The notes beneath the pieces were generated by a model, which made no database searches, was not told the origin of the DNA, and was given only the letters and a program-made list of their open reading frames with translations. A DNA stretch of 20,377 bases, taken from positions 1-20,377 of the forward strand of contig CAKUEZ010000032.1 of assembly GCA_934646965.1 (NCBI GenBank), written 5' to 3'. The DNA is from an uncultured Collinsella sp. Its GTDB lineage: Bacteria; Actinomycetota; Coriobacteriia; Coriobacteriales; Coriobacteriaceae. Positions 11,618-17,902 of this stretch are shown here, one piece after another (within the stretch, counting starts at the first letter, position 1; every line of letters begins with the position of its first letter). The position numbers and the translations under genes were made by a program.

Positions 11618-12237
11618 TGATCTCCCAGCTCCATGGAACGCTTGTCGAGGCCACGATGAGCTCGGCCGTCGTCGATGTATCGGGCGTGGGCTTTGAGGTC
11701 GGCATCTCGGGCAGCACTGCGGCCACGTTGCCGACGCCCGGCGGCGAGGTTCGCCTGTATACCCGTATGCAGGTGCGCGAGGATGCGATGACGCTCTTCG
11801 GTTTTGCCTCCAAGGACGAGCGCACGATGTTCGATCGGCTTGTGTCCGTCTCGGGCGTCGGTCCGCGCCTGGCACTTGCCGTGCTCTCCACCTATACCGT
11901 GGGACAGCTGTATTCCTTGGTGATGGCCGAGGACGACAAGGGCATGGCCAAGGTGCCCGGTGTGGGCAAAAAGACAGCTCAGCGCCTGATTCTGGAACTC
12001 AAGAGCACGTTTGCCAAGGATAAGGGCTTTGTGCCGGTCGACGTCATACCCGGCCAGGTCGCGATGACCGTGCCCGCCGCCGCGCCCTCGGCGATCGATG
12101 ACGCCCGTGCGGCGCTCCTTTCCATGGGCTTTAGCCCGCAGGAGACGGATGTTGCCCTGAGCGGGTATGATGGGCAGAATATGCGTGTCGAGGATCTGCT
12201 CGGCGCGGCGCTTAAGCGACTCGGAATGGATGCGTGA
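11617..12237 (+). CDS. ruvA: Holliday junction branch migration protein RuvA
   Basis: A 206-residue junction-recognition subunit. Domain I (about 1-63) is the OB fold beginning M-I-S-Q-L-H-G-T-L. Domain II carries two helix-hairpin-helix motifs, [10 protein letters not shown] (78-87) and [10 protein letters not shown] (113-122). After a Pro/Ala-rich flexible linker, domain III (about 157-206) is the RuvB-contacting helical domain. RuvA tetramers bind the four-way junction and load RuvB rings. The ATG lies in a TGATG overlap with the ruvC stop, and AGAGGA is seen near 11600-11605, so translation is probably coupled. Confidence 0.97.
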
Positions 12238-13304
12238 TGTGGGAAGCCGATGACTCTCAGGACCTGTGGGCGACGCCTGGCAACTCGCCGGCGGCATCCA
12301 TGGCGCATGGCGAGCGCATGGTGGGCTCGGAGCTGACGCCCGAGGACCTCGATGTCGACCGCACCCTGCGCCCCCAGCGCCTGGACGACTACTGCGGCCA
12401 GGAGCACATCAAGCAGAGTCTGCGCGTGCTGATCGAGGCCGCGCAGAGCCGCGGCGAGACGCTCGACCACGTGATCTTCTCCGGTCCTCCGGGCGTGGGC
12501 AAGACCACGCTGGCCACGGTTATCGCCAACGAGCTGGGCGCTCAGATTAAGACCACGAGTGGTCCCGCCATCGCGCGTACCGGTGACCTGGCGGCCATCC
12601 TTACCAACCTGCAGCCGGGCGACGTGCTGTTTATCGACGAGATTCATCGCCTCAACCGTTCGGTCGAGGAGGTCCTGTATCCCGCGATGGAGGATTTTGC
12701 CCTCGATATCGTGATCGGCAAGGGTCCGGCTGCGCGCTCGATTCGCCTGGATATCCCCAAGTTTACGCTGGTGGCGGCCACGACTCGCTCGGGCATGTTG
12801 ACCGGCCCGCTGCGCGACCGCTTTGGCATTTCGTATCGCCTAGATTACTACACCGTTGAGGAGCTCGCCCAGATCGTGACGCGCTCGGCGACCATCCTCG
12901 GCGTGACGATCGATCACCCGAGCGCGCTCGAGATCGGCTCGCGCTCGCGCGGTACGCCGCGCCTCGCAAACCGTCTGCTCAAACGTGTACGCGACTATGC
13001 GCAGGTACGTGGCAACGGCCCCATCGAGCTCGATATCTGCCGACAGGCGCTCGAGTTCTTCGAGATCGACGAGCTTGGCTTGGACTGGATGGACATTCGC
13101 ATCTTGGAGACGCTCGCCAAGACGTTTTCCGGTCGCGCCGTGGGCCTGACCACGCTTGCCAGCGCGGTGGGCGAGGATCCGGGCACGCTCGAGGATGTCT
13201 ATGAGCCCTATTTGCTGCAGTGCGGATTGATGATTCGCACGCCGCAGGGCCGCCAGGCAACCCTTCGCACCTTTGAGCACTTGGGAATCGAGCCGACCCT
13301 GTAG
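12237..13304 (+). CDS. ruvB: Holliday junction branch migration DNA helicase RuvB
   Basis: AAA+ motor of branch migration, 355 residues from ATG 12237, again in a TGATG overlap with the preceding stop. A GTG three bases earlier is an alternative start adding one residue. Walker A is GPPGVGKT (83-90), Walker B LFIDEI (131-136) and sensor 1 A-A-T-T-R-S-G; the arginine-finger segment is P-L-R-D-R-F-G-I (191-198). The C-terminal winged-helix domain includes [10 protein letters not shown]. The N-terminal ~40 residues are longer and more acidic than in E. coli RuvB. No terminator was recognised between the stop and fhs. Confidence 0.98.
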
Positions 13305-15143: not shown

Positions 15144-15179
15144 GCCCCGCCGCGCCCTCAAGGCCCGGCGGGGCTTTTT
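15144..15179 (+). terminator. Rho-independent terminator of fhs
   Basis: GCCCCGCCG (15144-15152) pairs perfectly with CGGCGGGGC (15166-15174), followed directly by TTTTT (15175-15179). It lies 25 nt after the fhs stop. Confidence 0.93.
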
Positions 15180-15258
15180 GATTCGCATGTGACGGAAGGA
15201 TTACGAATAAATTTGAGCTTTTGGCCGCTCTTTGGTAGCTGGAGAGGAGTTGCTCGCC

Positions 15259-15410
15259 AAAACTATGCCGGTTTACTACGATGATTTGGTATCCCTCAAC
15301 CACACCCGGTTTTTTGAATATTGGACAACTCGTCTACCTGCGGTTTTGTTTTTTCAAATAGTTGGGTGTTCGCCCCTAGTCGATTCATCGTAGTAAACCG
15401 GCATAGTTTT
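15259..15410. repeat. Long palindromic low-GC element, copy 1 (shared core TACCTGCGGTTTTGTT)
   Basis: The outer arms 15259-15284 and 15385-15410 are perfect inverted repeats of 26 bp. Inside, ACACCC (15302-15307) can pair with GGGTGT (15364-15369) and TTTGAA (15313-15318) with TTCAAA (15353-15358). This leaves an apical loop of about 34 nt holding the core TACCTGCGGTTTTGTT (15335-15350). The interior is about 38% GC (15301-15360, my count), far below the neighbouring genes. A second copy with the same core but different arms lies at 17661-17824. It sits after the fhs terminator and about 110 nt before the next start codon. With that terminator and the palindromes at 15425-15448, it accounts for the 400-nt gene-free stretch; nothing was recognised in 15180-15258. 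Confidence 0.85.
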
Positions 15411-15424
15411 TGACGCGGCGGCAA

Positions 15425-15448
15425 TGTTGCGCAACAAGAATCGCGATT
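15425..15448. promoter_or_regulatory. Two adjacent perfect palindromes upstream of the zinc-ribbon gene (possible operator)
   Basis: TGTTGCGCAACA (15425-15436) and AATCGCGATT (15439-15448) are perfect palindromes 2 nt apart, centred about 82 nt before the start codon of the zinc-ribbon gene. No clear -35/-10 pair was recognised in 15411-15518. A binding-site role is inferred from symmetry and position. Confidence 0.35.
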
Positions 15449-15518
15449 TCTCTCGTACGGTGTAGTTGGAAGAAATGCGCGCCGGCCTTTGCGGTTGCGA
15501 CGAGAGACGGGAGATGCG

Positions 15519-17552
15519 ATGTATTGCACCAAGTGCGGAGCTCAGATACCCGATGGCTCCACATTTTGCACGAGCTGCGGCGCTCGCGTGGGTGGCGCCG
15601 AGGACCAAGCGGAGCCTGTGGCGTTTCCGGTAGGGGATGAGCCGGCGACCGCTCCTGCGGGGCAGCACGCCCCTCAGGATGTTCCGGCTTATGTGTTTTG
15701 GGAACCTCCTTATGAGCCTCCTGTCACCGAACCCGCCGAGGCTGCTGAGTCGTTTGACCTGACGCCGCAGCCCAAGAAGCCCAGGCACAAGGGCCGCATC
15801 GTTGCTGCCGTTATCGGCGGTGTGGCCGTTGTTGCCATTGTCGCCGCCATCGTGATCGTTCCGCGTATCGGTTCGTCGTCCGAGGTAACCTCGGGCGGCA
15901 AGGGCTACGTTGTCTGCGCATGCGAGACCAAGGTCCTCCCCAAGAACAGCAAGGGCAAAAAGCTCGATAGCTATACCGTCGAGCTGGCGCCCGCGAACGG
16001 CAAGGGCAAGAGCTATACCATCAAGGTCGATGGCGAGGACGGCTTTGCCATGGAGGACTTTGGCGAGCTGCCCGACCAGAAGTACCAGATGACCATCACC
16101 TCGGGAAAGGGCAAAAAGAAGAGCACGACCACCATGAAGGTCGACTATACCAAGGAAGGTTCGGACGCCCCCAAGAGCGTTGAGCTCACGCAGTCCAAGA
16201 AGGAAGCCAAGGCCTCTGCCAAGGCAGCAGTAAAGACGGCAGACGAGCTGTTCACCGACAAGATCCTCGAGTACCAAAAGAAGTACGGCGAGGGCGAGGC
16301 TGTTGAGATTGACGATTCTTCGATGTTTGGAACACGGGGCGTTGCCTACGCTAAGCTCATCGATTTTGACGGCGATGGCCAGGACGAGCTTCTGATTGAG
16401 TACTCTGACGAGCCGATTGAAAACGACAATGGCGCCACTGCCGCCAAGGCCGAGGTTTGGGCATACCGCGATGGCGAAATCGAGAAGGTGTACGAGCCTG
16501 ATACTCAGGTCTACACCATGTGTGCTGGCGTCTCGCTTTACGTATGTGAATACGATGGTACCTATGGATTCAAACGGTACCTGCATGATGGGGAGACAAT
16601 TAATTTCAAAGATGTCCCAAATGGCTTTAATCAATCTCATGATGGTTATGAGTGCGAATTTAACGCCTATGATGGCAAATCATTTAGCGCCATTGTTGGA
16701 CCCATGGCGATTGACGATTCGAAGATGACCGACATCAAGGAAGTGCACGAGTTTTGCACCGAGCTTTTCAGCAGTGAGGAAAATGTAGGTCGCACCATCG
16801 GCACGGTAGCAACGACCCTGGAGCAGTTGAAGTCAAAGAACTCTGACGATGCGCAGGCGAGCTACGAGGCCGTTTCTGCCACGCAGGATGTCGACTTTAC
16901 GGCTGCAGTTGGCGAAGGCCCGCTGAACCCGTCTCCCGATGACACGTGCCAGATCACGGCTACGTGGACTTATCCTCAGGTGAAGGGCCAAGGCGTGGGC
17001 GTCGCCAAGTTCAACAAGGACATGGTCCAGCTCGTTGCGGACACGCTCGACGCGAGCAAGCGGGCCTCGATGGATGACGAGGACAGCCGCGTGACCATGG
17101 TGTACACGGCCGAGATCGTCTCGATTGACGGCGATATCGCCTGCGTGCGTACGTTTACACGCAGCTATCAACCTCCGTATCGATCGGTACAAATGACGAG
17201 GTCGGCGTACTACAACCTCAAGACGGGCGAGCAGGTCTCTCTCGAAGACTCGCTTGCACAGCACGGCCTTTCATTCGACACGCTCAAGAGCGAGGCCAAG
17301 CAGGCGATCAAAACGGCAAAGTCGGATATGGACTCCGCATATAACGATGGTCTCGACGATGAGGACAACTTTACCGAGGACCATTTCTACTACGACGGCA
17401 AGGGCTACATCGTTGTCCTCGATACCGGCGTATTTGACTGCATGGCATGGGATACGCACGACTTGGTTGCGCACGCCTTCGACTCGAGTTATTCCAGCGG
17501 TCAGGATGTAACGCCCGAGCGTGCAAAGGCTACATACGTGCCCAACGAGTAG
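15519..17552 (+). CDS. Zinc-ribbon, single-pass membrane protein with C-terminal RsiV/DUF3298-like domain
   Basis: A 677-residue protein. An N-terminal zinc ribbon C3-x2-C6 ... C17-x2-C20 is followed by a Pro/Glu-rich linker (about 28-92) and one transmembrane helix (about 94-117). This predicts a cytoplasmic ribbon and a large external part. Residues 120-230 are Lys/Gly/Thr-rich. An Asp-rich segment D-F-D-G-D-G-Q-D-E-L-L-I (from 282) resembles FG-GAP or EF-hand-like calcium loops. The last ~220 residues (from about 457) contain W-T-Y-P-Q-V-K, S-A-Y-Y-N-L-K-T-G-E-Q-V-S-L-E-D-S-L and a terminal beta-rich part that recalls the RsiV/DUF3298 fold. Function is unknown; sensing or envelope binding is a guess. 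The start ATG 15519 has GGGAG (15509-15513) 5 nt upstream and places the first Cys at residue 3, typical for such ribbons. A low-GC patch (16561-16680) interrupts otherwise GC-rich codon use. Confidence 0.85.
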   Translation: MYCTKCGAQIPDGSTFCTSCGARVGGAEDQAEPVAFPVGDEPATAPAGQHAPQDVPAYVFWEPPYEPPVTEPAEAAESFDLTPQPKKPRHKGRIVAAVIGGVAVVAIVAAIVIVPRIGSSSEVTSGGKGYVVCACETKVLPKNSKGKKLDSYTVELAPANGKGKSYTIKVDGEDGFAMEDFGELPDQKYQMTITSGKGKKKSTTTMKVDYTKEGSDAPKSVELTQSKKEAKASAKAAVKTADELFTDKILEYQKKYGEGEAVEIDDSSMFGTRGVAYAKLIDFDGDGQDELLIEYSDEPIENDNGATAAKAEVWAYRDGEIEKVYEPDTQVYTMCAGVSLYVCEYDGTYGFKRYLHDGETINFKDVPNGFNQSHDGYECEFNAYDGKSFSAIVGPMAIDDSKMTDIKEVHEFCTELFSSEENVGRTIGTVATTLEQLKSKNSDDAQASYEAVSATQDVDFTAAVGEGPLNPSPDDTCQITATWTYPQVKGQGVGVAKFNKDMVQLVADTLDASKRASMDDEDSRVTMVYTAEIVSIDGDIACVRTFTRSYQPPYRSVQMTRSAYYNLKTGEQVSLEDSLAQHGLSFDTLKSEAKQAIKTAKSDMDSAYNDGLDDEDNFTEDHFYYDGKGYIVVLDTGVFDCMAWDTHDLVAHAFDSSYSSGQDVTPERAKATYVPNE

Positions 17553-17577
17553 AGCAAGGCCGCAAGAACTGAATTTC

Positions 17578-17621
17578 AAAGTCCCCGGTGACGCAAAACG
17601 CAGCGCCGCCGGGGACTTTTT
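17578..17621 (+). terminator. Rho-independent terminator of the zinc-ribbon gene
   Basis: GTCCCCGG (17581-17588) pairs with CCGGGGAC (17609-17616), extended at the base by AAA/TTT (17578-17580 with 17617-17619), and TTTTT runs 17617-17621. It lies about 25 nt after the stop codon. Confidence 0.92.
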
Positions 17622-17660
17622 GATGCAAATAAGCTCCGGAAAAAGCCGTCTGGGTCAGCC

Positions 17661-17824
17661 GTGCCACGAAAAGCGCCCATCTACTACGTTTGCTCGGGGT
17701 GGGCCGACCACAGAGTGTTTTTCGACAATCTTGCAAGGTGTTTACCTGCGGTTTTGTTAACGCAAATATGGCCGTGGTTGGCACCCTTGGGTTAAACGTA
17801 GTAGATGGGCGCATTTTGTGGCAC
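17661..17824. repeat. Long palindromic element, copy 2 (shared core TACCTGCGGTTTTGTT)
   Basis: Arms 17661-17691 and 17794-17824 are inverted repeats over 31 positions with two differences, one of which is a G-T wobble. An inner pairing, CCGACCAC (17704-17711) with GTGGTTGG (17774-17781), extends the hairpin. The core TACCTGCGGTTTTGTT (17743-17758) is identical to that of copy 1 at 15335-15350, and both arms share a CTACTACG/TACTACG segment. The rest of the arm sequence differs from copy 1, yet each copy pairs with itself. It lies between the terminator of the zinc-ribbon gene and the PASTA-like gene, in the same orientation as copy 1, and fills most of a 400-nt gene-free stretch. Confidence 0.85.
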
Positions 17825-17902
17825 ACGGCCCAAGCGGAGACCGTTAGCCGCGCATGTCTTGTGATGCCGACGGGCTCTGCTCATCATAGGCTTTTGCGCG
17901 GG

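Follow-up and report, generated by a model that had tools for sequence, protein, structure and literature searches.

What are the two long palindromes at positions 15259–15410 and 17661–17824 of a contig from an uncultured Collinsella species, and what keeps them alike at their centres? The window analysed here comprises 20,377 nucleotides (nt) of contig CAKUEZ010000032.1. An initial annotation, made from the sequence letters, described two related palindromes with an identical 16-nt core and different, self-complementary arms. A structured RNA, a protein-bound cruciform and a non-autonomous mobile hairpin were offered as explanations, and no known family was thought to fit. Based on our computational analysis, both features are, with a probability of roughly 60%, copies of a non-autonomous DNA hairpin dispersed in Collinsella genomes which resembles REPINs and carries an unusual central core. 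The mobile hairpin is thus the best fit of the three options, and the interpretation as a whole is partly supported.

Both palindromes were confirmed at these positions on the + strand. Copy 1 (type B, 152 nt) has 26-nt arms (15259–15284 and 15385–15410) that are 100% complementary. Its outer arm AAAACTATGCCGGTT (15259–15273, partner 15396–15410) encloses an inner 122-nt unit at 15274–15395 (+) that runs from TACTACG to CGTAGTA and forms part of the gapless alignment described below. Copy 2 (type A, 164 nt) has 51-nt arms (17661–17711 and 17774–17824) with 78% complementarity, and folding suggests that pairing may extend ca. 10 nt outward, to about 17651–17832. Its inner 122-nt unit lies at 17682–17803 (+) and falls in the cluster represented by the copy 2 orthologue in locus L174. 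The shared 16-nt core TACCTGCGGTTTTGTT is exact in both copies (15335–15350 and 17743–17758, both +). At up to 3 mismatches, 0.06 core matches would be expected in the window, and two were reached in 0 of 100 shuffles. The annotated TACTACG motif was found in all four arms of the two copies. At 15274–15280 and 17682–17688 it equals the nick site of pMV158-type rolling-circle plasmids; this likeness is probably coincidental, given that other type B copies have TACGGGG instead. In all four foldings (two copies, both strands), the predicted folds were stronger than those of all 200 shuffles, with z between -7.0 and -8.9.

Further copies in related genomes, which the initial annotation had asked of a genuine family, were found in number. 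A first search of species-representative genomes with the pattern GACAAN{4,20}core returned 9 loci, 7 of them from Collinsella, and the other two look like chance matches. In seven Collinsella genomes chosen because the element is present in them, ACCTGCGGTTTTNTT gave 59 matches, distributed over 7/7 genomes, with 0 for the reversed-pattern control. With one base of the core left free, TACCTGCGGTTTTNTT was present in 29 of 43 genomes of the genus and absent from 14, the reversed-pattern controls again giving 0. The copies fall into several arm types: type A (GCCACGAAA..GGCCCATC together with TACTACGTTTA), type B (AAAACTATGCCGGTT with TACGGGGCTAA or TACTACGATGA, found in 6 of the 7 genomes when these were searched by arms), type C (CCGGAAGTGCGG) and type D (CTAAGTGAGTAGACTTTT). 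Quite different arms occur in genomes G030, G038, G040, G041 and G031. The core is the part common to all arm types. Type A arms contain GTAG; GTAG or CGTC is the tag at the end of repetitive extragenic palindromic (REP) sequences.

The spacing of these parts is nearly constant. Arm-to-arm distances were taken independently of the core, and removal of reverse-complement duplicates left the counts unchanged. Of 45 distinct type A copies, 44 have their arms 113 nt apart and one has them 112 nt apart; for type B the distance is 139 nt in 23 of 25, with one copy at 140 nt and one at 399 nt; the latter probably reflects the arm of a neighbouring copy. The inner unit, TAC...GTA, has the same length of 122 nt in both type A and type B. 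From 256 core hits, 41 without a palindrome score of 18 were dropped, leaving 215 palindromic copies in 50 clusters, each with one representative. L081 and L100 had been removed from an early alignment as chance matches. The unit could be placed in 31 of the 50 representatives, the 19 others without it being left out; these 31 units, preselected at 122 nt, align without gaps, and the distance to the core is identical in all of them. Among loci fetched by their arms only, all 41 units carry a 14-nt core at 0–2 mismatches (0 mismatches in 28), and mean column conservation over 11 cluster representatives of such loci was 0.97 for the core and 0.67 for the variable parts. The family consists of dispersed copies with near-fixed length, inverted conserved arms, a variable spacer and a near-invariant core. 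Open reading frames overlapping the elements reach at most 114 codons with a crude caller. Copies cluster next to one another in the genomes, and CAAAATGATCCGTTTTCCTCCGTCCCCAAGGGATCA, which forms a small hairpin of its own, often lies between neighbours, so that units are ca. 250 nt apart (L098, L118, L143 and L090).

That pairing is kept while sequence changes was claimed from two copies, and the larger set bears this out in part. We took together the outer arm helix (helix 1), a second short helix (GACCAT/ATGGTC) and the apical helix in the 31 representatives. Here, 82.0% of cells pair compared with 76.0% in shuffles, two-sided changes occur in 68 cells compared with 30.5 in shuffles and 9–19 in slid controls, and the covariation score is 0.233 compared with 0.127. 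By these three of five measures the helices exceed shuffles, and the arms of aligned copies do stay complementary. The apical helix contributes zero two-sided changes. Covariation is thus real for the arms, but the signal of helix 1 arises mostly where one arm type replaces another as a whole, and hence reflects few events. In the interior, 25 pairs in symmetric register show no excess (45.4% pairing, 46.3% in shuffles). Since the helices lie above shuffles and the interior at their level, the family is not a single continuous hairpin; it is composed of arms, a second short helix and the core, spaced by variable stretches of constant length.

Selection on an RNA should tolerate G.U pairs, so the mismatches bear on the nature of the element. 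In the 50 cluster representatives there are 62 G.U and 70 A.C mismatches (p=0.54), and across all 215 palindromic copies 371 and 394. This near equality leaves no general strand signal and no sign of selection on RNA. No Rfam family was matched at its gathering threshold, the best match having an E value of 0.47 and 21.5 bits where 70 are required. The orientation of neighbouring genes is mixed among 44 copies (classes of 11, 11, 14 and 7 and one unassigned, by a crude caller and with some copies orthologous). Based on these three results, we read the copies as DNA palindromes. A structured RNA family, acting in cis as a regulator or made as a discrete small RNA, would account for the strong predicted folds of both window copies, for the covarying arms, for the better fold of copy 2 on the + strand (-105 compared with -85 kcal/mol on the other) and for a terminator-like apical hairpin that is followed by T-rich sequence in some copies. 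The last two points weigh against the DNA reading as well. With interior pairing at shuffle level in addition to the three results above, we consider the RNA explanation highly improbable, and this option of the annotation is disfavoured.

Comparison of related genomes reveals differences in presence and in content at single sites. Downstream of fhs, genomes G033 and G034 carry the zinc-ribbon gene and copy 2 without copy 1. Relative to both, the window holds 232 extra nt (15183–15414), bounded by the 8-nt near-repeats TTTTTGAT (15175–15182) and TTTTTGAC (15407–15414). A second informative location is a LuxR-gene site with matches in 33 of 43 genomes and 21 loci at a level of at least 89%. A complete type B palindrome is found at 18 of these 21 loci; at 10 of them the TACGGGGC cassette stands in forward orientation, and at the other 8 the TACTACGA cassette is reversed. 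These are different 122-nt units in opposite orientation inside the same outer arms, with mostly similar flanks. At the same site, L254 has a reversed GGGG cassette with degraded arms (by reading, the script having made no call), L262 an IS110 element inside the palindrome and L267 a different hairpin (AGTTGCGGTG). The difference in cassettes could be explained by copies recombining with one another; a dedicated enzyme behind their exchange is only a possibility.

Presence/absence polymorphism, inverted ends and an apparently non-coding interior would also be expected if the copies were ordinary miniature inverted-repeat transposable elements (MITEs) belonging to a DDE transposon, in which case the arms would be terminal inverted repeats and TTTTTGAT/TTTTTGAC around copy 1 a candidate target duplication. 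However, unrelated arm types surround one common central core, arm searches of 7 genomes turned up no parent transposon with these ends, and target duplication is unproven, so that we regard this explanation as very unlikely. ERIC, NEMIS, YPAL and MITEs are long hairpin-forming intergenic repeats, as the copies described here appear to be. Unlike in those families, arm types differ around one core, and length is kept despite interior divergence.

Conservation in place was assessed in an orthologous type A set of 15 copies (1 of 16 being excluded for length or N). Mean pairwise identity was 0.95–1.0 for the inner arms, apical stem and core, 0.88–0.89 for the outer arms, 0.89–0.90 for helix 2, 0.66–0.93 for the four variable stretches and 0.74–0.81 for the flanks. 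Arms and core are thus the most conserved parts, yet one variable stretch (0.93) is close behind. Copy 2 orthologues in G001, G033 and G034 retain the inner arms and core, and a C-G pair of helix 2 is replaced by T-A in them; the apical stem at the LuxR-gene site shows paired changes in L264, L260 and L265. Such paired changes fit either selection on pairing or template-switching correction inside the palindrome.

The core is also found outside the genus. Of 396 genomes sampled from the class Coriobacteriia, 43 contain a 17-nt version, CTACCTGCGGTTTTNTT. Outside the 43 genomes of the genus there are 21 hits in 17 genomes, with 1 reversed control in the whole search. Four of these 21 sites are palindromic with a score of at least 17 and have different arms (L356, L376, L377 and L378), and the other 17 are non-palindromic with scores of 6–11. 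By eye, three of the non-palindromic cores lie upstream of dnaB-like genes (L349–L351) and others near tRNA, integrase or phage-like genes. Judged from these sequences, the core appears to have a life of its own apart from palindromes. In viral contigs the bare 16-mer gave 67 hits, 65 of them with no exact inverted repeat of at least 12 nt within 90 nt of the core; the two contigs with an inverted repeat (L054 and L065) show identical sequence, with repeats resembling plasmid iterons. The viral-collection contig L054 carries, at 11800–12700, GGTGCAGTTTTTTTAACC repeats, probably plasmid iterons, and two TTTACCTGCGGTTT sites. Copy 1 had no match in phage records.

The palindromes might instead serve the host as a protein-bound cruciform or a structural DNA site, for example in chromosome organisation or as a transcription-unit boundary, with selection acting on arms and core. 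The high identity of inner arms and core relative to the flanks, the paired changes at one site in L260, L264 and L265 and the occurrence of the core in other Coriobacteriia above the reversed control all favour this explanation. As a counterpoint, template switching within a palindrome can also yield paired changes. Further, some close relatives lack copies, the core pattern is missing from 14 of 43 genus genomes, and cassettes differ and flip at one site. A host function for these palindromes is therefore possible but doubtful in our view.

The core is, in addition, an insertion target. The core of copy 2 is exact, and in other copies the same sequence is split by an IS110-family element, whose DEDD transposase domain (PF01548) was identified with an E value of 2.2e-19 and 70.2 bits, the cut-off being 29, from a single N-terminal piece. 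Insertions were sought with the left end of the insertion sequence (IS) alone, in place of an earlier pattern that included part of the core and had given 17 junctions. We obtained 23 matches in 6 of 43 genomes. One left end in G017 was an internal duplicate; without it, a count by genome gives 22 insertions, some of them possibly representing one event shared by two genomes. Twenty of the 22 lie in hairpin cores, assigned by eye from their left flanks to types A (11), B (4), C (1) and D (4). Of these, 19 follow ACCTGC and one follows ACCAGC, and both insertions located elsewhere follow CCTGC. At the five distinct right ends seen, sequence resumes at CGGTTT. An element found in no more than 6 of 43 genomes is unlikely to account for core conservation. 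A 1.7-kb arm-to-arm span in G002 was considered as a possible autonomous element flanked by widely spaced arms and turned out to be an IS110 insertion. An IS200-like locus (L201), flanked on either side by ACCTGCGG, was set aside as such an element as well, the core not being seen there.

Insertion of IS110-family elements into REP elements and their use of a bridge RNA have been described (PMC11208160). As in that targeting of REP elements by IS621, a repeated palindrome serves as the target here. In contrast, the target here is a central core common to four arm types, and the match between the non-coding left end of the IS and its target is not significant (best pair with 4 mismatches of 16; 271 of 1000 shuffles were as good). 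The idea that a bridge RNA matches the core had looked suggestive on inspection and was dropped for this reason.

The closest known counterpart is the REPIN, a hairpin-forming doublet of REP sequences for which RAYT proteins are likely the enzymes (PMC3116915). As in REPINs described there, two inverted conserved ends stand at fixed spacing, copies are dispersed and clustered, the spacer varies in sequence while its length is conserved, and compensatory changes occur in the hairpin, seen here by the three measures given above. Several arm types per genome around one core, and RAYT linkage not being found at the loci examined, set the family apart from REPINs as presented there. With the shared organisation, the statement that no known family fits is partly overturned. 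Because no RAYT was linked at these loci, we call the element REPIN-like and do not file it as a REPIN. RAYT-type genes (PF01797) occur in 37 of 43 genomes. A RAYT as mobiliser was considered and rejected, as the examined loci, part of the PF01797 hits, show no A or B arms. One RAYT region (L386) has a single lone ACTATGCC. Several examined RAYT loci bear other repeats (GGGACGG, GGGACAG). In L388, L381, L385 and L386, RAYT-type genes are flanked by GGGACGGGGCTTTTTTAGCTAC or GGGACAGAC..ATGAGTG repeats, which are probably the REPs of those genes. A repeat resembling GGGACGGGGCTTTTTTAGCTAC adjoins several type A elements.

A number of results count against a mobile REPIN-like hairpin. A or B arms and core were absent from 30 RAYT loci, a subset of the PF01797 hits, and TACTACG was absent from 12 further RAYT regions, ca. 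four of which overlap those 30 loci. Arm searches of 7 genomes revealed no autonomous element with these arms. The passages of PMC3116915 consulted do not give a conserved asymmetric central core as a trait of REPINs. Two covariation measures do not rise above shuffles, namely pairs with two-sided change (11 compared with 10.2) and further pair types (27 compared with 28.4). Arms and core are conserved in place across orthologues, which could mean host function. Further, the difference at copy 1 could have arisen by insertion, or by deletion between the 8-nt near-repeats, and the candidate target duplication, seen at copy 1 only, is unproven.

If the REPIN-like reading holds, the element would extrude as a hairpin from DNA that is single-stranded or supercoiled and would be moved or copied by an enzyme that acts in trans and requires both the hairpin geometry and the core. 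Arm identity might be maintained partly via recombination or template switching between arms. A more far-reaching possibility, which we consider unlikely, is a modular hairpin-cassette element of Coriobacteriia in which a putative enzyme reads the core (14–17 nt) at the tip of the hairpin and either inserts cassettes or swaps one for another. In that event, cassettes of fixed length (122 nt, types A and B) would sit in either orientation inside outer palindromic arms, the arms would turn over freely around a fixed core, and the IS110-family element would parasitise that core.

Among the papers listed in searches of the openly licensed literature on Collinsella/Coriobacteri repeats, including PMC8040213 and PMC7771070, we found no description of this hairpin family, and the core letters had no match in openly licensed literature. 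The REPIN-like copies add a family of hairpin repeats to an abundant human gut genus and split two features that REPINs combine, namely conserved ends and a recognition-like sequence that is likewise conserved. They also offer a natural example in which an IS110-family element finds its landing pad repeated across several types of hairpin.

In the window, copy 1 sits between the formate-tetrahydrofolate ligase gene fhs (PF01268) and a zinc-ribbon protein gene (PF13240), and copy 2 between the latter and a 318-residue open frame without a Pfam match. The 3' end of fhs has 93–94% identity to the best loci of the genus Collinsella. Beyond the two palindromes, a second hairpin family of fixed length, with AGTTGCGGTG(A/G)AATA and CGGACTG or GTTCCTG arms, was observed at L097, L121, L127, L267 and other loci. 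In all 20 distinct copies with GTTGCGGTG arms, these arms are separated by 56 nt.

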